Origin: Bacteroides sp. 43_108
Lineage (GTDB): Bacteria > Bacteroidota > Bacteroidia > Bacteroidales > Bacteroidaceae
Assembly (NCBI GenBank): GCA_001915545.1
Contig: MNQS01000122.1
Location: 1-64,000, forward strand
Length of the DNA stretch: 64,000 nt
Direction: 5' to 3'
The translations under genes and the position numbers were made by a program. The notes below the pieces were generated by a model. The model did not search any database, was not told the DNA's origin, and saw only the letters and a list, made by a program, of their open reading frames with translations. Of the stretch, positions 26,389 to 35,861 are shown piece by piece (the first letter of the stretch is position 1; the number at the start of each line of letters is the position of its first letter).

Positions 26389-27366
26389 AATAACGTGAGT
26401 TCGACGAATTGTAAATGTTTAAGAAATTGGTGATTAGCGAAAAATGTTGTATTTTTATAGTGTTGAATTACAAAGGATTACAAACAATAATCGCTATGAT
26501 CACCGAAAGCAAAGTTATAGAATTATTTTGTATGGCAGATGATTTCTGCAAGTTTTTTGATGCCATGACGGCAAAATATACACTTAAATCCACCACCAAA
26601 CGTCAGTATCATCGCGCTTCAACCATGTCAAAGGCAGAAATCATGCTCATCATGATACTTTTCCACGACTCGGGATACCGTTGCCTGAAGCATTTTTATC
26701 TGTAAAAGGTCTGCAGGCATATGCGCCATCTCTTCCCGAATGTCGTTTCCTATAACCGTTTCGTTGAATTGGAAAAGGAAGTTGCCGTCCAATTGGCCCT
26801 GTTCATCAAGAAGGTGCTTTTGGGCAAATGTACCGGCATCAGCTTCGTTGACAGCACTCCCTTACGGGTATGCAGGAACCAGAGATTCCTTTGGTTCTTC
26901 GGATTCAAATTGCATCTTATATGCAATGAACGTGGAGAACTCTTGAATTTCATGATCACGCCCGGCAATGTGGATGACCGTTCTGGATTACAAATCATTT
27001 ATGGATTTCATCTATGGAAAGCTGGTCGGCGATAAGGGATACATCGGCAAGAATCTCTTTGAAAGATTGTTCGTCGACGGCATACAGCTTATAACCAAGA
27101 TGAAAAGCAATATGAAAGGTGCATTGATGACACTTTCAGACAAACTGCTTCTCAGGAAGCGGGCCATTATAGAAACCGTAAATGATGAACTCAAGAATAT
27201 TGCACAAGTGGAACATTCACGGCATAGAAGCTTTGATAATTTTATTGTCAACCTCTTGAGTGCAATTGCTGCATATTGCTGCTTTCCAAAGAAGCCGTGT
27301 ATCAATGTTACGAGAACAAATGACACATAGCTTGCATTGTTCTGAATTCGTCGAACTCACGTTATT
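26389..27366 (+). mobile_element. IS982-family insertion sequence with inverted repeats
   Basis: The element is bounded by perfect 22-bp inverted repeats, 26389-26410 and 27345-27366, whose core is GTGAGTTCGACGAATT. It is about 980 bp, normal for IS982. No matching target-site duplication flanks it: the other half of the disrupted neighbour IS is not found on the right, so a deletion probably followed insertion. Confidence 0.85.
26415..27330 (+). pseudogene. Decayed IS982-family transposase
   Basis: Three pieces of one transposase are visible. The N-terminal piece ends at an in-frame TAA (26703-26705). The middle piece carries the first catalytic Asp in SFVDSTPLRVCRNQR, which joins straight to WFFGFKLHLICNERGE, about 15 residues shorter than I would expect there. 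A frameshift near 26990 leads to the last piece with KLVGDKGYIGKNLF and RAIIETVNDELKN, the remaining D and E. The element cannot transpose by itself. Confidence 0.88.
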
Positions 27367-29148: not shown

Positions 29149-29748
29149 TTATAGAACTGGAGTCCCACTAGGTGTCCATCTTTTCCATGCATTCTCGTTA
29201 TGAGTTAATCTCAATAAAATAGGAGGATTTGGACAGTTGATAGGAGGGGATGTTTGTTGATAAGGTAATATACAACCCAGTTTAAGAGATTCTATATAGA
29301 TGTACAAAGTTTCTTTACATACATTTGTTATAGTATAAGTTACGCCAAAATTTGTTATTGTTGAATCCTTGCGAAAACAGCTATTTCTAACTTCATGCAC
29401 TTTATATCTCGAAGTTTCTTCATAATCTCGTTTTTTATTGCTATTCGTTTTATTGCGGTTATCGGGAGTCTCACTAAAAGGGAAAGAAACAACTTTTTTA
29501 TGTTCTTCACAAACGTAGTCATACGTCCAATATTTCATATCGCATTTACCATGCTTATTTGTTCTACCATTAAATAAGCATTTCCCACATACAGGACAGT
29601 ATGCTTTTGTGTCACAAGAACTGTGTTTGTCGATGGTGGATTGTGAATTATACGTATTTACCTTTTTATTTTTATAGTCTCTACGAACTTGCCCATAAAG
29701 TGTTATTGTCCCACATATTAGAAACATAAATAAAATAATAATTTTCAT
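29149..29748 (-). CDS. Secreted Cys-rich protein of unknown function
   Basis: I do not recognise this 199-residue protein. It has a signal peptide (MKIIILFMFLICGTITLYG), then a Cys-rich part (CDTKAYCPVCGKCLF, with further Cys in GKCDMKYW and YVCEEHKK, about residues 45-82) that looks like a zinc-ribbon or disulfide module, a charged linker, and a C-terminal beta-rich part ending NENAWKRWTPSGTPVL. It is the last of three AT-rich genes read leftward, 12 nt after the previous one. Base composition is clearly lower in GC than the housekeeping genes, consistent with transfer. Confidence 0.7.
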   Translation of the reverse strand: MKIIILFMFLICGTITLYGQVRRDYKNKKVNTYNSQSTIDKHSSCDTKAYCPVCGKCLFNGRTNKHGKCDMKYWTYDYVCEEHKKVVSFPFSETPDNRNKTNSNKKRDYEETSRYKVHEVRNSCFRKDSTITNFGVTYTITNVCKETLYIYIESLKLGCILPYQQTSPPINCPNPPILLRLTHNENAWKRWTPSGTPVL

Positions 29749-29760
29749 GTACTTATTCTT

Positions 29761-31326
29761 TTAATTAGTTAAACAATCATTTCCATCTTCAAAATAGAGC
29801 AAATCACCTTCTAAAGACAAAAAATAGACCTCGTTCCCATCTACCCAAATTTGCTTTGCTCCATTTTCGTAAAATACAGTTTGTTCACCTTTGGAATTCA
29901 ACCTCAATATGTTGCTATCTGTAGCCACAAGCATTCCCCACGGTGAAAGAATCATATCATTAAGGCCGTCTGTAACATTATATAGTACACATGGTTTTGT
30001 ATTTCCATCTCCAATAGTTAGAATTTTATTGTTTAGTAAAATGTATATATCGTCATTATTAGCTTCTAATTTCCAAACATAAAATGGAATACGACATATT
30101 TCATCATATTTGCGATTTACGATGTCTACTTTATATATTGCAGATATCTCATTATAGAATGCCACAAAAAAGAACGAATTTTCACTATTTGAAAAAATGG
30201 AAATATTATTAGTATCCAATTCTAATAAACATTTTGAGGTACCATCATAAATACTATAAATTTTATTGTCAATTCTGCTAATAAGGTAATTCCCACAAGG
30301 AATAACATAGGTATGCCTTAGATTATCTTTCCATGCAACTTTACGAAGTTGATAATCTTTAAGTACAAGCATGCTATCTTCTAAAATCATAACTGGACCA
30401 CATCCTGGTATCACAAAAATATCAGTAGAATCCAGTAATAGTTCATCATGAGAAATCAATAAAACAGGATAAGGCTTTTTATGTAAGCTTTTTCCGGCTC
30501 CTTCAGGTGATTTGATGTCTACTAATGCCTCTTTTTCTAAAGCAGAAATCCAATCGTCTATTACATCTGGACGAATATCTGTTAGATCAGTAACTGATAT
30601 TTGTGAGGATTTTTCATTTAGTGGAATATTTTTTTGAAGAGAAAACTCTGTTATAATAATTAGTCCTCCATCGTTTTTCTTTTCATCTTTTTGTGGTATA
30701 GTAAAATAATCAGAAGGTTTAAGAGATTCGTCAACAGCTTTTGCACCTTCTGTGGCATGCCAATGGTCACGTTCTACTGCAATCCGGAATTCCTGTTCTG
30801 TTCTCTGATAATAGTTTTGTTTTGCAATCATTTCAGAACGGTCGTCTTCTCTTTTTTTTCTTAATTTTTCCATAACCATACGTTCATGTGCTTTTTGAGC
30901 GGCAATTTTCATCTGTTGACGTCTATATTCCATAAATGATGGTGTTGTTCTTGCTGATGTATTTGATTTAATTTTATTAATTTGACTATTCCGTACTGTG
31001 CTTTGTGCGGAATTTCCGTTTATAAATCTTATCCCGTTTTTACTATTTGTTACTACCACATTGTTAGCATTAGGTTTCTTAAATCCGGCATTTACAACTC
31101 CACCCTTACCATCAGGTCTAACGATAGTACTGATATCTGAATTGCTCATCGACATTAATGATTTCTTCGCGCTATTTGCAAGCCCTGCTGAATATGAGTC
31201 TTTGCAATACAAATCACGTTCTTCCTCCCATTCCTTGCTGTACATGTCGTCATAAAATGATTGGGCATGAAGTTCAATACTGTTAAAAGCATAAACAACA
31301 AGAATCATTAAATAAATATTTTTCAT
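29761..31326 (-). CDS. Large secreted protein with a propeller-like C-terminus, unknown
   Basis: A 521-residue protein with a signal peptide (MKNIYLMILVVYAFNSIELHA). Residues 25-130 are low in complexity (RPDGKGGVVNAGFKKPNANN), 130-200 form a charged helical part (RRQQMKIAAQKAHERMVMEK), and about 270-520 contain repeated short beta units of the type 'NKIYSIYDG', 'NNDDIYILLNNKILTIGDG', 'GNEVYFLSLEGDLLYFEDG', which suggests a beta-propeller. No catalytic motif was seen. It is the middle gene of three, 10 nt from the first and 12 nt from the third. The function is unknown. Confidence 0.7.
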   Translation of the reverse strand: MKNIYLMILVVYAFNSIELHAQSFYDDMYSKEWEEERDLYCKDSYSAGLANSAKKSLMSMSNSDISTIVRPDGKGGVVNAGFKKPNANNVVVTNSKNGIRFINGNSAQSTVRNSQINKIKSNTSARTTPSFMEYRRQQMKIAAQKAHERMVMEKLRKKREDDRSEMIAKQNYYQRTEQEFRIAVERDHWHATEGAKAVDESLKPSDYFTIPQKDEKKNDGGLIIITEFSLQKNIPLNEKSSQISVTDLTDIRPDVIDDWISALEKEALVDIKSPEGAGKSLHKKPYPVLLISHDELLLDSTDIFVIPGCGPVMILEDSMLVLKDYQLRKVAWKDNLRHTYVIPCGNYLISRIDNKIYSIYDGTSKCLLELDTNNISIFSNSENSFFFVAFYNEISAIYKVDIVNRKYDEICRIPFYVWKLEANNDDIYILLNNKILTIGDGNTKPCVLYNVTDGLNDMILSPWGMLVATDSNILRLNSKGEQTVFYENGAKQIWVDGNEVYFLSLEGDLLYFEDGNDCLTN

Positions 31327-31336
31327 ATATTCTTGA

Positions 31337-32863
31337 TTAAAACTTAAGTGATATTCCTAAATTTTCAGATGAAAGTTCAATACTTAATTCTGCATTGTTG
31401 CGAATACTTTGCATTTTCTTTTCATTATATTTCAATATTTTCTTATTAAGTTTTTTTGCAATATTAGGAAACACGATTAAACTGGTCGCTAAACCCGCGG
31501 CTGCAATTCCCAAAGAAGTAAATGCCATAGTTTTGTAGCCTTTGAATCCCATACCATCATCTGAAGGTTTAAATGCAAATGAGCCAAGTCCAAGACCTAT
31601 ACCTGCCCCTGTAATACAGCCTACAACGGTACTCCAACTTCTTAAGTTGCGTGATAGACGGCAAATATTATTAAATTCTTCATCATATATACCTAATTCT
31701 TTTATTTTTTTCTTGGACATAAATAGTTGATTTTCTGTAAATGGCATATTTGATTCATTGTCAAGTCTTAAAAACTTAACATTTTCTTTATATTCATATT
31801 TATCTACGGTATTTAAATTAGATGACTTCTTTTGTATCCGTTGTCCTTTTATATCTACAGACATGATATTGGGTTGTGTTAAAGTCATTGATTGTTCATA
31901 AATATAAATTTTCTTTTTAGATACAGCTATATTATCAAACAGTTTATTGACAAATGTGCTCCCAATTTCTGTAACTATATCAGCTGCCATTTGTTCACTC
32001 ATTGAATGTTCATTTTTTCTTGAAAAATGTCCTACTATGGATGCATTAATATCGCGCGTAGTTTTTCTCAATGATGTAGATAATTCTGCATTTCCTATTG
32101 TTAATTTCTCCGAACTCCAATTTGAATAAAGATTATTCTCCGATACCTCTATTATTAAGTTTGATTCTATGTAATTCGAAAAATCGGAAAAGAGGCCCTT
32201 TTTGAATAGCCTTTTTTGAATATTATAACAAAGGTTTGTAGATATATGAAGCTTTTGAGTATTATCTTGGGTAACGTGTATAATATAGTCAGGGAAAGGA
32301 TCCTTAATTGTCAATTGCTTATCTGATATCCATATTCCTGTAAAGCCTTTAGTATTACGTATAGATTGAAGTTTTTTATTTAATAGGTTTAAATCTTCTT
32401 GTATATTAAGTTTATTTAAATCGGAATAATTAGTTAAACCATTGATTATTTGGTTCAAATAAATTGAATCCATCTTAGATTCTGCTAAGTTAGCTTCCTC
32501 AAAAAAACTTAGATATACTCGTTTGTCATTAGCTGGAGCAATGGAACGAAAAAGATATGATATTTTTTTAACAGCATTAATATTTTCACTGGCAATAAGT
32601 GACTTGACATTTTGGTATAATCGTCCGATTATACTATCTTGAGTGGACTTATTCTGCTTTATATAAAATTGTTTTAAGCGTCCTTCAATTATGTTGCAAG
32701 CTATATCGTTTTCTGTATCTATGTAGGCTACTACTATAGAATCTATTTCAGCCATAGTTTCTGAAATTTCTATATCTGATGTAAGATTATTATTTTTTTG
32801 AGCTGAAACAAATGAGAAATCTGAATACACCCATAATATAAATAGTATAATATAATATTTCAT
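31337..32863 (-). CDS. Secreted or membrane-anchored protein, unknown function
   Basis: A 508-residue protein with a signal peptide (YYIILFILWVYSDFSFVSA). Most of it is mixed charged and polar. Near the C-terminus there are two glycine-rich hydrophobic segments (GCITGAGIGLGLGSFAF and AFTSLGIAAAGLATSLIVF, about residues 415-465), followed by a basic helical tail and LSIELSSENLGISLKF. The segments could span a membrane as a hairpin. It is the first gene of the three-gene AT-rich set. The family is not recognised and no enzyme motif is visible. Confidence 0.7.
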   Translation of the reverse strand: MKYYIILFILWVYSDFSFVSAQKNNNLTSDIEISETMAEIDSIVVAYIDTENDIACNIIEGRLKQFYIKQNKSTQDSIIGRLYQNVKSLIASENINAVKKISYLFRSIAPANDKRVYLSFFEEANLAESKMDSIYLNQIINGLTNYSDLNKLNIQEDLNLLNKKLQSIRNTKGFTGIWISDKQLTIKDPFPDYIIHVTQDNTQKLHISTNLCYNIQKRLFKKGLFSDFSNYIESNLIIEVSENNLYSNWSSEKLTIGNAELSTSLRKTTRDINASIVGHFSRKNEHSMSEQMAADIVTEIGSTFVNKLFDNIAVSKKKIYIYEQSMTLTQPNIMSVDIKGQRIQKKSSNLNTVDKYEYKENVKFLRLDNESNMPFTENQLFMSKKKIKELGIYDEEFNNICRLSRNLRSWSTVVGCITGAGIGLGLGSFAFKPSDDGMGFKGYKTMAFTSLGIAAAGLATSLIVFPNIAKKLNKKILKYNEKKMQSIRNNAELSIELSSENLGISLKF

Positions 32864-33276
32864 AGTTTATAAATGTTTAAAAGTTGGATAACAATGATTT
32901 CTATTATTAGCTTTTACGTTGTGTACTTTTTAAGTGTTCGTATATGCTGTTTTTTTGCATATAGTCTTGTAAATATCAATACGAATTATGTAAAATGATG
33001 GTATACAATAAATTAGCATATTCAAAGTTCTTATCTTTACTGCATATTAAATAACACAGTACCTGCAATATAATTCATCAGACATGCTTTTAGTTGCAAG
33101 GCACCTTGATAACGCATTTCGATAAGAGATGATTATTATCACTGATTTATTTAGAAGTTCTCCAAAGTATGGAACTTCAATTCTAATTAATTACTTTCTT
33201 ATCCATACATTGAAAATTTAAATTCATCTTATAAACTCCCCAAATCAGATTTATAAAATACTAATGATGAGATACT
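32864..33276. other. AT-rich intergenic region before the three-gene set
   Basis: About 410 nt without a credible gene. It is AT-rich and has stops in all frames. It should hold the promoter of the leftward three-gene set, but no full TTTG/TAnnTTTG pair was found. A short hairpin-forming CAAGGTGCCTTG lies near 33097. Confidence 0.5.
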
Positions 33277-33560
33277 AAAAAAGACGTGGGAGTTTCTACT
33301 TCTCGCTTATCCCACGGTCAGGCTCTCGCATTGCCTCTCTCTTAGGATAAGCAACGCAGTCAGCCCACGCCCAGATGATATTATACAAGTAGAAAGAATC
33401 CTATATAAATTCTTTCATTTATAATACACCCAACGTGGACGTTTCGTTGCCTTACCTTCGAAGAGAGTTCAAACTTGCGAGATTTGACCGTCGAAGATAA
33501 CGTTCGTAACGTCCTTTATCAGTAAATAACCCACAGCCCCCCTACGGGCTAACCGAGTCA
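33277..33560 (-). ncRNA. Candidate structured non-coding RNA of about 280 nt
   Basis: The leftward strand could give a compact RNA. In transcript order: a small hairpin (33550-33546 with 33539-33535), a long hairpin closed by GGACGTT/AACGTCC (33514-33508 with 33443-33437) with inner helices at 33500-33491/33461-33452 and 33487-33483/33473-33469, a hairpin at 33426-33379 with nested stem 33416-33409/33399-33392, and a 3' module whose outer helix CGTGGG/CCCACG (33369-33364 with 33290-33285) encloses GCTTATCC/GGATAAGC and ends at a run of six U. One pair in the long hairpin is U-G on this strand but C-A on the other, which favours the leftward transcript. No open frame covers it. Its family is not recognised; the 3' end resembles omega-RNA-type ends of IS200/IS605 elements only loosely. 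Confidence 0.6.
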
Positions 33561-33564
33561 CGGG

Positions 33565-33572
33565 CAAATATA
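33565..33572 (-). promoter_or_regulatory. -7 box of the candidate RNA
   Basis: Read leftward, TATATTTG fits TAnnTTTG perfectly and is followed at once by the GC-rich start of the structured region. The -33 region is AT-rich without a clear TTTG. Confidence 0.5.
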
Positions 33573-33599
33573 ATATATTAAATTTGTTTTGTAAGGATA

Positions 33600-33759
33600 T
33601 TATTCTGTTTTTTTCTAATAATGGAAAATTGTATTGTATATTATTAATGTGAAGTCAAACTTAAAAATATTCTATGATAGGTGTAGATACTCATAATACG
33701 ATATTCTGATTTGATAGGCAGACGAATAAGTCGAATTATGGAGTAGGGGAATAATAGGA
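33600..33759. other. AT-rich spacer
   Basis: Between the candidate RNA and the second terminator repeat. I see no gene or recognisable site in it. Confidence 0.4.
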
Positions 33760-33804
33760 AAAAGCGGAAGCGTTGGACTTTTAAAGTCTGCAGCTTCCGC
33801 TTTT
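33760..33804 (-). repeat. Terminator-like hairpin, repeat copy 2
   Basis: AAAAGCGGAAGC and GCTTCCGCTTTT form a 12-bp stem. The loop core TGGACTTTTAAAG and the right flank TTTTGTATTGTT are shared with the hairpin at 27391-27435. It lies 31 nt past the stop of a gene remnant on the same strand, so it was probably the terminator of a lost gene. Confidence 0.75.
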
Positions 33805-34283: not shown

Positions 34284-35861
34284 TCAGAATGTTACTTTGC
34301 AGGTATAGCCTTTGGCTGTATTCAATATGTATGTGCCCGACGGCATGGACATTTCTGAATCCTTGCCTTTGTAGACCATGCGTCCGCTCATATCGAATAT
34401 GCTGATTATTGCTTTCTCTGGATTTATTATCCTGCTTCCGTCAAAGCTGATGCCTTCTGACATTTCAGTTGACTGTATCGATGCCGGTATTTCCTGATAG
34501 TTCATGAAACTGGACCATCCGATAGCCATTTCGTAGTCGCTGATGTAGTCGAACGGAACGTATATAGGAATGTTCGGGTCGGTATTCTCGAATGTGTATG
34601 ACGTAATCATTGGAGGCACGGTGGCATTGCAATATATTGATGTCAGGTATGTGCCGCTGAATGCATAGTCGCCTATCGAAACGATGCTGGCAGGGAATTC
34701 TATCGTGCTTATTTTCGAACACGTGCAGAACGCCTCGTTGCCTATGGTAGCGACTTTGTTCGGCAATTTTATCTGCTCAAGACTTATGCATCTTTTGAAA
34801 GCTTCGCTGCCGATGCTTTTGACTTCTCTTGGGATGTTTATGTTTTTCAGACCTGTGCAGTACATGAATGTGCGGTCTGCAATGGTTGATATGTTCTCCG
34901 GCAGTTTTATGTCCGTAAGTGTGTGGCAACCGTAGAATGCCCAACCTTCTATCTGTTCGGTTTCTGCCGGTACAGTGTATGACGTGATGTCTGTCTTGTT
35001 GCGAGGATAACAGATAAGTGTACTTTTATCTTTGGTGAAAAGTATTCCGTTGTCGGGTATGAAATGTTGATTGTCTGAAGTAACGTTTATTGCTTTCAGA
35101 CGATCGCTGACAGTGAATGCAAGGTCGCCGATTTCTTCGACTGATGCAGAAATATATGCTTCCTCAAGATAAGGTGCATTATTAAGTGCTCGTTCTTCAA
35201 TTCTTTTTACTCCTTCGGGCACACTGAAGGTCTTGTCGCTCTTTCCTTGCGGATATTTGATGAGCGTTGTTTTGTCGTAATTGTACAGAACTCCGTCTAC
35301 GGAAACGAAGCTTTTATTGCCTGAAGAAACGTCGATGGATGAAAGTGAGTAGCAGTCGTGGAATGCGAGTTTTCCGATATAGCTGACTGCATCTGAAATC
35401 GTTATATCCTTAAGGTCCGAACATAGGCAGAACGCATAGTCGCCGATGTTTTCTACTGACGGGCTTATGTTGATTTCCTTAAGGCTTCCGCATTGGAAGA
35501 ATGCACTCTCCTTTATTTCTTTAAGGCCGTCGCCTATTACGACTTTGTCCAGCGACGAGCAGTTGCTGAATGCGTTCTCACCAATTGTCGCGACATTGTT
35601 CCCGATATATATTTCGTCCAATTTTGTGTATCCCGAGAATGACATACCGTATATGCTTGTGACACGGTAGTCTTTTCCTTCGAAGCTTACAACATCGGGA
35701 ATTGTGATGCTCGACGCTGTGGTAGAACCTCCAGTCACCTGTACTTCCAATTTGTCTTTCGATGTGATCTCGTAATTGACGTCATCTACGGAGAATGATT
35801 GTGCTGTAATTGTTCCGCCTGATGACAAGGCTAGCAAAAGTGTAAAAAGTTTTGTGTTCAT
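34284..35861 (-). CDS. BspA-like leucine-rich-repeat surface protein with T9SS-type tail
   Basis: A 525-residue exported protein with a signal peptide (MNTKLFTLLLALSSGGTITAQS) and about twelve LRR_5 (Treponema pallidum type) repeats over residues 60-440, each with the IGxxAFxxCxxLxxIxIP pattern. The last 70 residues (GSRIINPEKAIISIFDMSGR, then SGTYILNTAKGYTCKVTF) look like a type A T9SS C-terminal sorting domain, so export through SprA and surface attachment are likely. BspA-type proteins bind host matrix or other bacteria. A matching promoter lies upstream at 35916-35947. It stands alone as a transcription unit. Confidence 0.88.
   Translation of the reverse strand: MNTKLFTLLLALSSGGTITAQSFSVDDVNYEITSKDKLEVQVTGGSTTASSITIPDVVSFEGKDYRVTSIYGMSFSGYTKLDEIYIGNNVATIGENAFSNCSSLDKVVIGDGLKEIKESAFFQCGSLKEINISPSVENIGDYAFCLCSDLKDITISDAVSYIGKLAFHDCYSLSSIDVSSGNKSFVSVDGVLYNYDKTTLIKYPQGKSDKTFSVPEGVKRIEERALNNAPYLEEAYISASVEEIGDLAFTVSDRLKAINVTSDNQHFIPDNGILFTKDKSTLICYPRNKTDITSYTVPAETEQIEGWAFYGCHTLTDIKLPENISTIADRTFMYCTGLKNINIPREVKSIGSEAFKRCISLEQIKLPNKVATIGNEAFCTCSKISTIEFPASIVSIGDYAFSGTYLTSIYCNATVPPMITSYTFENTDPNIPIYVPFDYISDYEMAIGWSSFMNYQEIPASIQSTEMSEGISFDGSRIINPEKAIISIFDMSGRMVYKGKDSEMSMPSGTYILNTAKGYTCKVTF

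Follow-up and report, generated by a model that had tools for sequence, protein, structure and literature searches.

We present here what is probably (we put it at about 0.7) a family of large, pseudoknotted 5′-leader RNAs of Bacteroidaceae-type bacteria, one without an Rfam match, that would control in cis the gene or genes lying behind it. Most likely it would act as a riboswitch-like switch that decides whether the downstream gene is made. Relatives of Bacteroides and Prevotella are the dominant bacteria in many animal guts, and to our knowledge the classes of regulatory RNA known from them are few. The family was found from a single place in the window, by which we mean the whole stretch of DNA that was analysed, 64,000 nucleotides of contig MNQS01000122.1 of Bacteroides sp. 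43_108, where an original prediction made from the letters alone had proposed an undescribed structured RNA with its own promoter box and U tail.

Much of that prediction held when the window copy was re-examined (Table 1). The −7 box and the six U are both present, the box being of the type TAnnTTTG, which is the Bacteroidota −7 promoter consensus, and no ORF of 80 aa overlaps the element. Folded on the leftward strand, 33564-33277 reaches −109.6 kcal/mol against −78 ± 4.9 for shuffled sequences (z −6.45, none of 200 shuffles as low); because the rightward strand folds less well (−82.7 kcal/mol, z −5.08), the leftward strand is favoured. An Rfam search at the gathering score left the region 33277..33572 without a family and found in the whole window one tRNA, elsewhere, and nothing on the RNA, while at E ≤ 10 the stretch 33000-33800 gave six sub-threshold matches, the best with E 0.23. 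Other parts of the prediction had to be amended. The claim that the element is richer in GC than its flanks proved one-sided: in 200-base windows the GC content is 0.375-0.435 over the middle of the element and 0.235-0.29 downstream (windows covering 32700-33299), but upstream it drops to about 0.31 and then stands at 0.38-0.47 beyond about 33700. The letters of the proposed CGTGGG/CCCACG helix are there, with CCCACG at 33290-33285 (−), but CGTGGG occurs twice 5′ of it, at 33316-33311 and at 33369-33364 (−), and the partner conserved across the family is the farther one. The nearer site, which may be the partner originally meant, has different letters in most other copies of the 24-copy core alignment. 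Nor does the RNA end at its U tail, since conservation extends about 45 nt farther, up to a leader element ahead of the start codon. Upstream, at 33760-33804, lies an inverted repeat with 22-nt arms that are 82% complementary and 1 nt apart; it may be the terminator of the upstream BspA-type gene (34284-35861), in which case the RNA probably begins its own transcription unit. Farther off, the remains of a DDE transposase are spread over several ORFs at 26415-27330, with DDE_Tnp_1_3 on the piece 26721-27035.

Table 1. Parts of the window copy, from the promoter box to the gene cluster.
Part	Position	Strand	Basis or remark
−7 promoter box TATATTTG, Bacteroidota type TAnnTTTG	33565..33572	(−)	
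5′ hairpin (P0) and linker, variable between copies	33517..33564	(−)	folding
Conserved RNA core	33274..33516	(−)	covariance model R1, 196.5 bits; the window is among R1's 24 source sequences
Strand a (AAGGACG), pairs with strand b or strand d	33510..33516	(−)	covariation
Kissing loop UCUCGCA (33482-33476) and flanking strand GGUC (33489-33486)	33476..33489	(−)	covariation
Strand b (AACGUCCACG)	33434..33443	(−)	a:b and b:c pairing
Hypervariable extension, strand b to strand c	33372..33433	(−)	alignments
Strand c (GGCGUGGG), 5′ half of terminator-type helix	33364..33371	(−)	c:d pairing
11-bp inner helix of 3′ domain, 5′ strand	33344..33354	(−)	covariation
Kissing loop UGCGAGA (33330-33324) and flanking strand GACC (33319-33316)	33316..33330	(−)	covariation
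11-bp inner helix of 3′ domain, 3′ strand	33303..33313	(−)	covariation
3′ arm GUAGAAACUCCC, complementary to leader element beyond U tail	33288..33299	(−)	arm:leader tests
Strand d (CCCACGUC), 3′ half of terminator-type helix	33283..33290	(−)	pairing with c and a
U tail	33277..33282	(−)	six U
Leader hairpin, 6-bp stem read from the sequence	33230..33255	(−)	GGGGAGUUU at 33241-33233 complements the 3′ arm
14-codon ORF, where the long gene starts in many other copies	33183..33227	(−)	
508-aa protein, first cluster gene	31337..32863	(−)	
Second and third cluster genes, 521 and 199 aa	29149..31326	(−)	

The first relatives were reached by a scan with the neighbouring Mrp gene, from which 80 of 273 loci were kept. 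Their record titles name Bacteroidaceae, Prevotellaceae, Paraprevotella, Bacteroides, others and one Roseburia, and the closest Mrp relative is 85% identical in protein. When 20 of these genomes were searched at the DNA level, 12 gave matches at E ≤ 0.1, several in more than one place; three of the 12 are weak (E 0.0026-0.049). RNAalifold on alignment A2 returned 28 nested pairs only, and the covariance model R1, built from the core alignment of 24 copies, likewise holds 28 nested pairs only. R1 matched 18 of 20 genomes reached through Mrp loci, with 11 matches in Paraprevotella clara (two weak), 9 in P. xylaniphila, 6 in Mediterranea massiliensis and 3, one of them strong, in Bacteroides ndongoniae; it found no match in two MAGs titled Phocaeicola and Mediterranea. 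Among genomes sampled from one bacterial family, 155/201 matched at E ≤ 1e-3, and 142 of these 155, counted from the listing, had a best E of 1e-10 or lower; this search scored nine candidates per genome, so that copy numbers are lower bounds. At E ≤ 1e-5 the model matched 5 of 295 genomes sampled from the class, and these five include two genomes of the family sample, G003 and G052, and one marginal match. As a check on specificity, the class sample thus confines the RNA essentially to a single bacterial family, whose Bacteroidaceae-type label rests on record titles.

For the comparisons below we assembled 106 copies: 20 first-round regions, the window, two Paraprevotella loci, 23 copies out of 30 loci from the family search (the rest repeat first-round copies) and 60 from hand-chosen places in the family-search list. 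Since these are mostly top-scoring, weak or broken copies are under-represented and the set is not a random sample. Alignment A3 holds 96 of them, with a mean pairwise identity of 51%. Rfam matches around further copies all fell off the RNA, both at the gathering score (12 further loci, three matches) and at E ≤ 0.5 (20 further loci, one sub-threshold match). Homologue search and covariation test together returned a large RNA family with covarying helices. With many homologues, strong covariation and no Rfam match, a structured RNA family on the leftward strand, with a promoter-like box and a U tail, is borne out, but not the discrete, stand-alone RNA that had been implied. A shorter subgroup of the same RNA, 220-228 nt long, is formed by L271-L275 and L279, five copies being in Mediterranea massiliensis. 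A TPP riboswitch (L262:2747-2839) and a FopS-family sRNA (L279:1788-1855) lie near, not on, copies of the RNA.

The strongest covariation in A3 falls on a long-range helix that is absent from R1 (columns 39-42/306-309 and 46-47/299-300, z 12.6-21.3); two sequence subgroups raise covariation values also for non-pairing columns, up to z 16.4 (columns 47 and 300). In the letters of the window, whose GGUC is displaced one column in the alignment by a gap, part of this helix is a kissing contact that joins the 5′ hairpin loop (UCUCGCA) to the loop of the 3′-domain hairpin (UGCGAGA), and a 7-bp kissing interaction between two hairpin loops that would hold the core is supported by covariation. The pseudoknotted fold with its two kissing hairpin loops is paired in 97.9% of 4169 cells over the 96 copies, against 90.1% when shuffled and 36-52% in slid controls. 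Cells changed on both sides number 446 against a shuffled mean of 121.9, and 25 of 44 pairs are changed on both sides somewhere. The inner 3′ helix is paired in 99.1% of cells, with 8 of its 11 pairs changed on both sides; as A3 was fitted to R1, this helix, c:d and the 287-290:302-305 hairpin are biased in favour of the model. R1 lacks the kissing helices, a:b and a:d, which A2 was the first alignment to show. They hold in the 73 of 96 copies whose loci lie outside the starting alignment: with the column register taken from all 96 copies, K1 is paired in 248/274 cells (shuffled 52%), K2 in 510/511 (93%), a:b in 484/489 (96%) and a:d in 567/581 (94.5%). All the copies that were folded, the window copy and three others, form the 5′ hairpin P0, and RNAalifold on this hairpin in 72 poorly aligning copies gave no consensus.

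Four strands of the RNA, a to d, can be joined in mutually exclusive ways. Over the 96 copies complementarity is found in 99.6% of cells for c:d (with the bias just mentioned), 97.5% for a:b, 96.6% for a:d and 88.0% for b:c, the weakest helix and one whose value stands without a shuffle control; columns 82-89 with 265-271, paired in 92.5%, compete with the inner 3′ helix. One set of pairings gives a terminator-type hairpin that ends in a U-run, four U or longer in 92 of 96 copies, and the other set closes the whole RNA as a rod. Because the terminator-type helix and the closing helix exclude each other, attenuation is suggested; the pairings themselves are supported, and that the RNA actually switches between two such states we would call slightly short of an even chance. 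The rod is the more stable of the two forms in 87/96 copies when pseudoknots are left out; as the energy model then omits the kissing contact in the terminator form, the true balance may differ. The terminator-type helix spans about 73 nt between its strands, which is unusual for an intrinsic terminator; the nearer CGTGGG could give a conventional terminator in the window copy alone.

In 72 of 106 copies a TAnnTTTG box starts 20-90 nt ahead of the core, against a mean of 4.1 and a maximum of 9 in 50 mononucleotide shuffles. Downstream, when ORFs of 80 aa or more are counted, the nearest one shares the strand of the RNA in 98 copies, lies on the opposite strand in 7 and is missing in 1; it starts 44-86 nt past the core in 69 of the 98, and in 6 of the 7 opposite-strand cases a search of the same strand only gives an ORF of at least 60 aa, 64-76 nt on. 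Upstream ORFs show no bias, 52 being on the same strand and 46 on the opposite one. Beyond the U-run many copies have, by eye, a hairpin-like leader, and in the window the leader element GGGAGUUU complements the arm just 5′ of strand d (AAACUCCC). The duplex of arm and leader has a mean of −14.63 kcal/mol when each of the 106 copies is paired with its own leader, against −12.34 when leaders are swapped (z −9.8). A duplex of at least 6 bp is present in 81/96 copies (swapped mean 52.8, maximum 63 in 200), and at 9 bp or more the excess is weak (8/96; swapped mean 4.2, maximum 8). This covariation across the U-run is our main argument that the functional unit is the read-through mRNA leader, and together with the same-strand gene close downstream it makes an mRNA leader, not a free sRNA or an omega-RNA, the most likely identity of the element. 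On this sequence evidence we hold it highly probable that the family is a cis-regulatory leader.

The mechanism that we propose runs as follows. Transcription would begin near the TAnnTTTG box, and the 5′ hairpin and a core of about 245 nt would form, the core being held by the 7-bp kissing interaction. Strand d (CCCACGUC and the U-run) would pair with strand c, giving the terminator-type hairpin, or instead with the 5′ strand a, giving the rod-like closed form, and the choice between c:d and a:d, both of them conserved as complementarities, may be the regulated step. The leader element would be present only in read-through transcripts, where, as its covariation suggests, it would pair with the 3′ arm of the RNA close to the start codon, and this pairing may affect translation. 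Candidates for the signal are a metabolite, an ion or a protein.

The genes behind the RNA are varied. Among the commonest 25 of 61 Pfam families on 99 downstream proteins, LRR_5 is found in 6, LytTR in 3 and carboxypeptidase-regulatory-like domains in 5 and 4; among the commonest 25 of 30 NCBIfam families, a Cys-repeat radical-SAM target family is found in 7 and UpxY in 1. The proteins belong to many unrelated families or to none, without an evident common function among the families listed, and as no shared pathway stands out, no ligand can be named. Three genomes (L132, L134, L138) have one and the same series of seven related genes behind the RNA, and in Paraprevotella clara (L269) an additional copy precedes a gene for an UpxY-family antiterminator (NF033644, 113.5 bits, cut-off 100). 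The radical-SAM target family, found in 7/99 downstream proteins, is TIGR04117. Some small proteins behind the RNA have a start like RREFFKKAAK (L144, L155, L157, L159, L168, L170 and L179, loci assigned by eye).

The window copy departs from this arrangement and may be altered: the ATG behind its leader opens 14 codons only, and the gene of the 508-aa protein starts 410 nt past the core. The three genes of the cluster (29149-32863) had been described as encoding unknown secreted proteins; they do have the orientation of the RNA and no Pfam match, but "secreted" is a reading of their N-termini by eye. Homologues of the 508-aa protein occur in one of the 201 family genomes (G163), where they head two paralogous three-gene clusters (L283 and L284). 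One of these clusters is directly preceded by the RNA, with a start 51 nt past the core, which makes a link between the RNA and window-type gene clusters likely; the other is without the RNA, so that the pair offers a natural comparison.

Could the RNA instead be a stand-alone, trans-acting sRNA that is transcribed from a promoter of its own, stops at the U tail and sits near genes by neighbourhood only? The promoter-like box and the U-run would suit such an sRNA, as would the 410 nt to the next long gene in the window, but a same-strand ORF close downstream in 98/106 copies, with no bias upstream, and a leader past the U tail that covaries with an arm of the RNA both speak for a leader, and we regard the sRNA as improbable. 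Leader position and a terminator-like site also fit a cis RNA that senses no ligand itself but brings a protein to the elongation complex. Antitermination of this processive kind is exemplified by the put RNAs, the EAR RNAs and NusG-paralogue systems, and UpxY is the NusG paralogue that antiterminates at Bacteroides capsule leaders. These capsule leaders are found in the same bacterial group, and one copy of our RNA does precede an UpxY-family gene; among 99 other downstream proteins, however, 1 matches UpxY, the rest falling into many unrelated families or none, so that antitermination seems an unlikely explanation, if one to be taken seriously.

Two further readings start from mobile DNA. 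The original prediction had noted that the 3′ end looks vaguely like that of omega-RNAs, and an omega-RNA or other guide RNA left by an IS200/IS605-type element would, like ours, be a structured RNA of a few hundred nucleotides. Yet neither the window copy nor the RNA in 32 further loci has a HEARO or IS605 match in Rfam, for which reason this candidate was rejected; the 3′ end is a U tail and not a variable guide in 92/96 copies, the RNA is arranged as a gene leader, and the ten ORFs around it in the window include no nuclease of the TnpB, IscB or IsrB families, the only transposase being the DDE fragment. We give the guide RNA practically no weight. A promoter-plus-RNA module spreading before genes for its own sake would explain why there are several copies per genome and why some lie on plasmids and on contigs listed as viral; the run of seven related genes kept behind the RNA in three genomes argues against it, and a mean identity of 51% over the 96 copies gives no sign of recent spread. 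A recent mobile element was rejected on that identity, and we consider the module in general very improbable.

A switch-like leader RNA remains our preferred reading. Known riboswitch and attenuator leaders, such as the cobalamin riboswitch with its terminator and kissing loop, share with it the 5′-leader position, a terminator-like stem with a U-run, mutually exclusive helices, a loop-loop pseudoknot and several copies per genome. They differ in that our RNA has no Rfam match, measures about 290 nt plus the leader, has no metabolic theme downstream among the families listed, and pairs with a leader element past the U-run. A leader in 155/201 family genomes before surface, secreted and regulator genes would point to a shared signal. 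As a bolder and tentative proposal, to which we would give rather less than even odds, this may be a new class of pseudoknotted switch RNAs, large and abundant, that occurs in most of the sampled family genomes with up to about 10 copies in each. Such RNAs would convey a single common signal to a regulon of scattered genes (envelope, secreted, peptide-precursor and regulator), by means of an exchange among four strands (a:b and c:d against a:d and b:c) together with a second contact, made to the leader immediately ahead of the start codon.

In the accessible portions of the papers searched we found no description of such an architecture of four-strand exchange and leader contact, and recognised no description of this RNA (PMC8040213, PMC7160235 and PMC2864571 included; most subscription papers lie outside this coverage). 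Bacteroidales-1, Bacteroides-1 and related motifs are structured RNAs of Bacteroidetes that were found computationally (PMC2864571); those with an Rfam number have no match on our RNA, and Bacteroides-2 is listed without such a number. HMP2_1881 is a 108-bp candidate found mostly in Bacteroidetes near radical SAM domains (PMC8040213). It shares a radical-SAM context with our RNA, 7/99 of whose downstream proteins belong to the radical-SAM target family, in a comparison made by description only.

Copies were also found on plasmids and on contigs listed as viral. Searched by blastn, the window RNA has no match among plasmids and phages, and the L134 copy none among plasmids. One RNA copy each, scoring 135.7 bits, is carried by plasmids of Phocaeicola dorei CL06T03C03, a human isolate, and P. 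vulgatus CL10T00C06. On the P. dorei plasmid a hypothetical protein (WP_133300711.1, no NCBIfam or Pfam match) starts 62 nt past the core, with a leader hairpin between them by eye, and this copy makes the RNA testable in a cultured strain. The pattern GAGAAGTAGAAACNCCC picked out 21 stretches of viral contigs (L001-L021), none of which matched the core profile at E ≤ 0.01. Five contigs listed as viral hold a conserved 17-mer, and three of them carry the RNA; record MT839469 carries it as well. On one contig listed as viral (L286:392-8125) the RNA ends 9 nt before an ORF of 577 aa whose EF-Tu domains match GTP_EFTU, and a later ORF has a weak match to a HerA-type ATPase; a reading of one ORF of L286 as Hsp70-like found no NCBIfam or Pfam support and was dropped.
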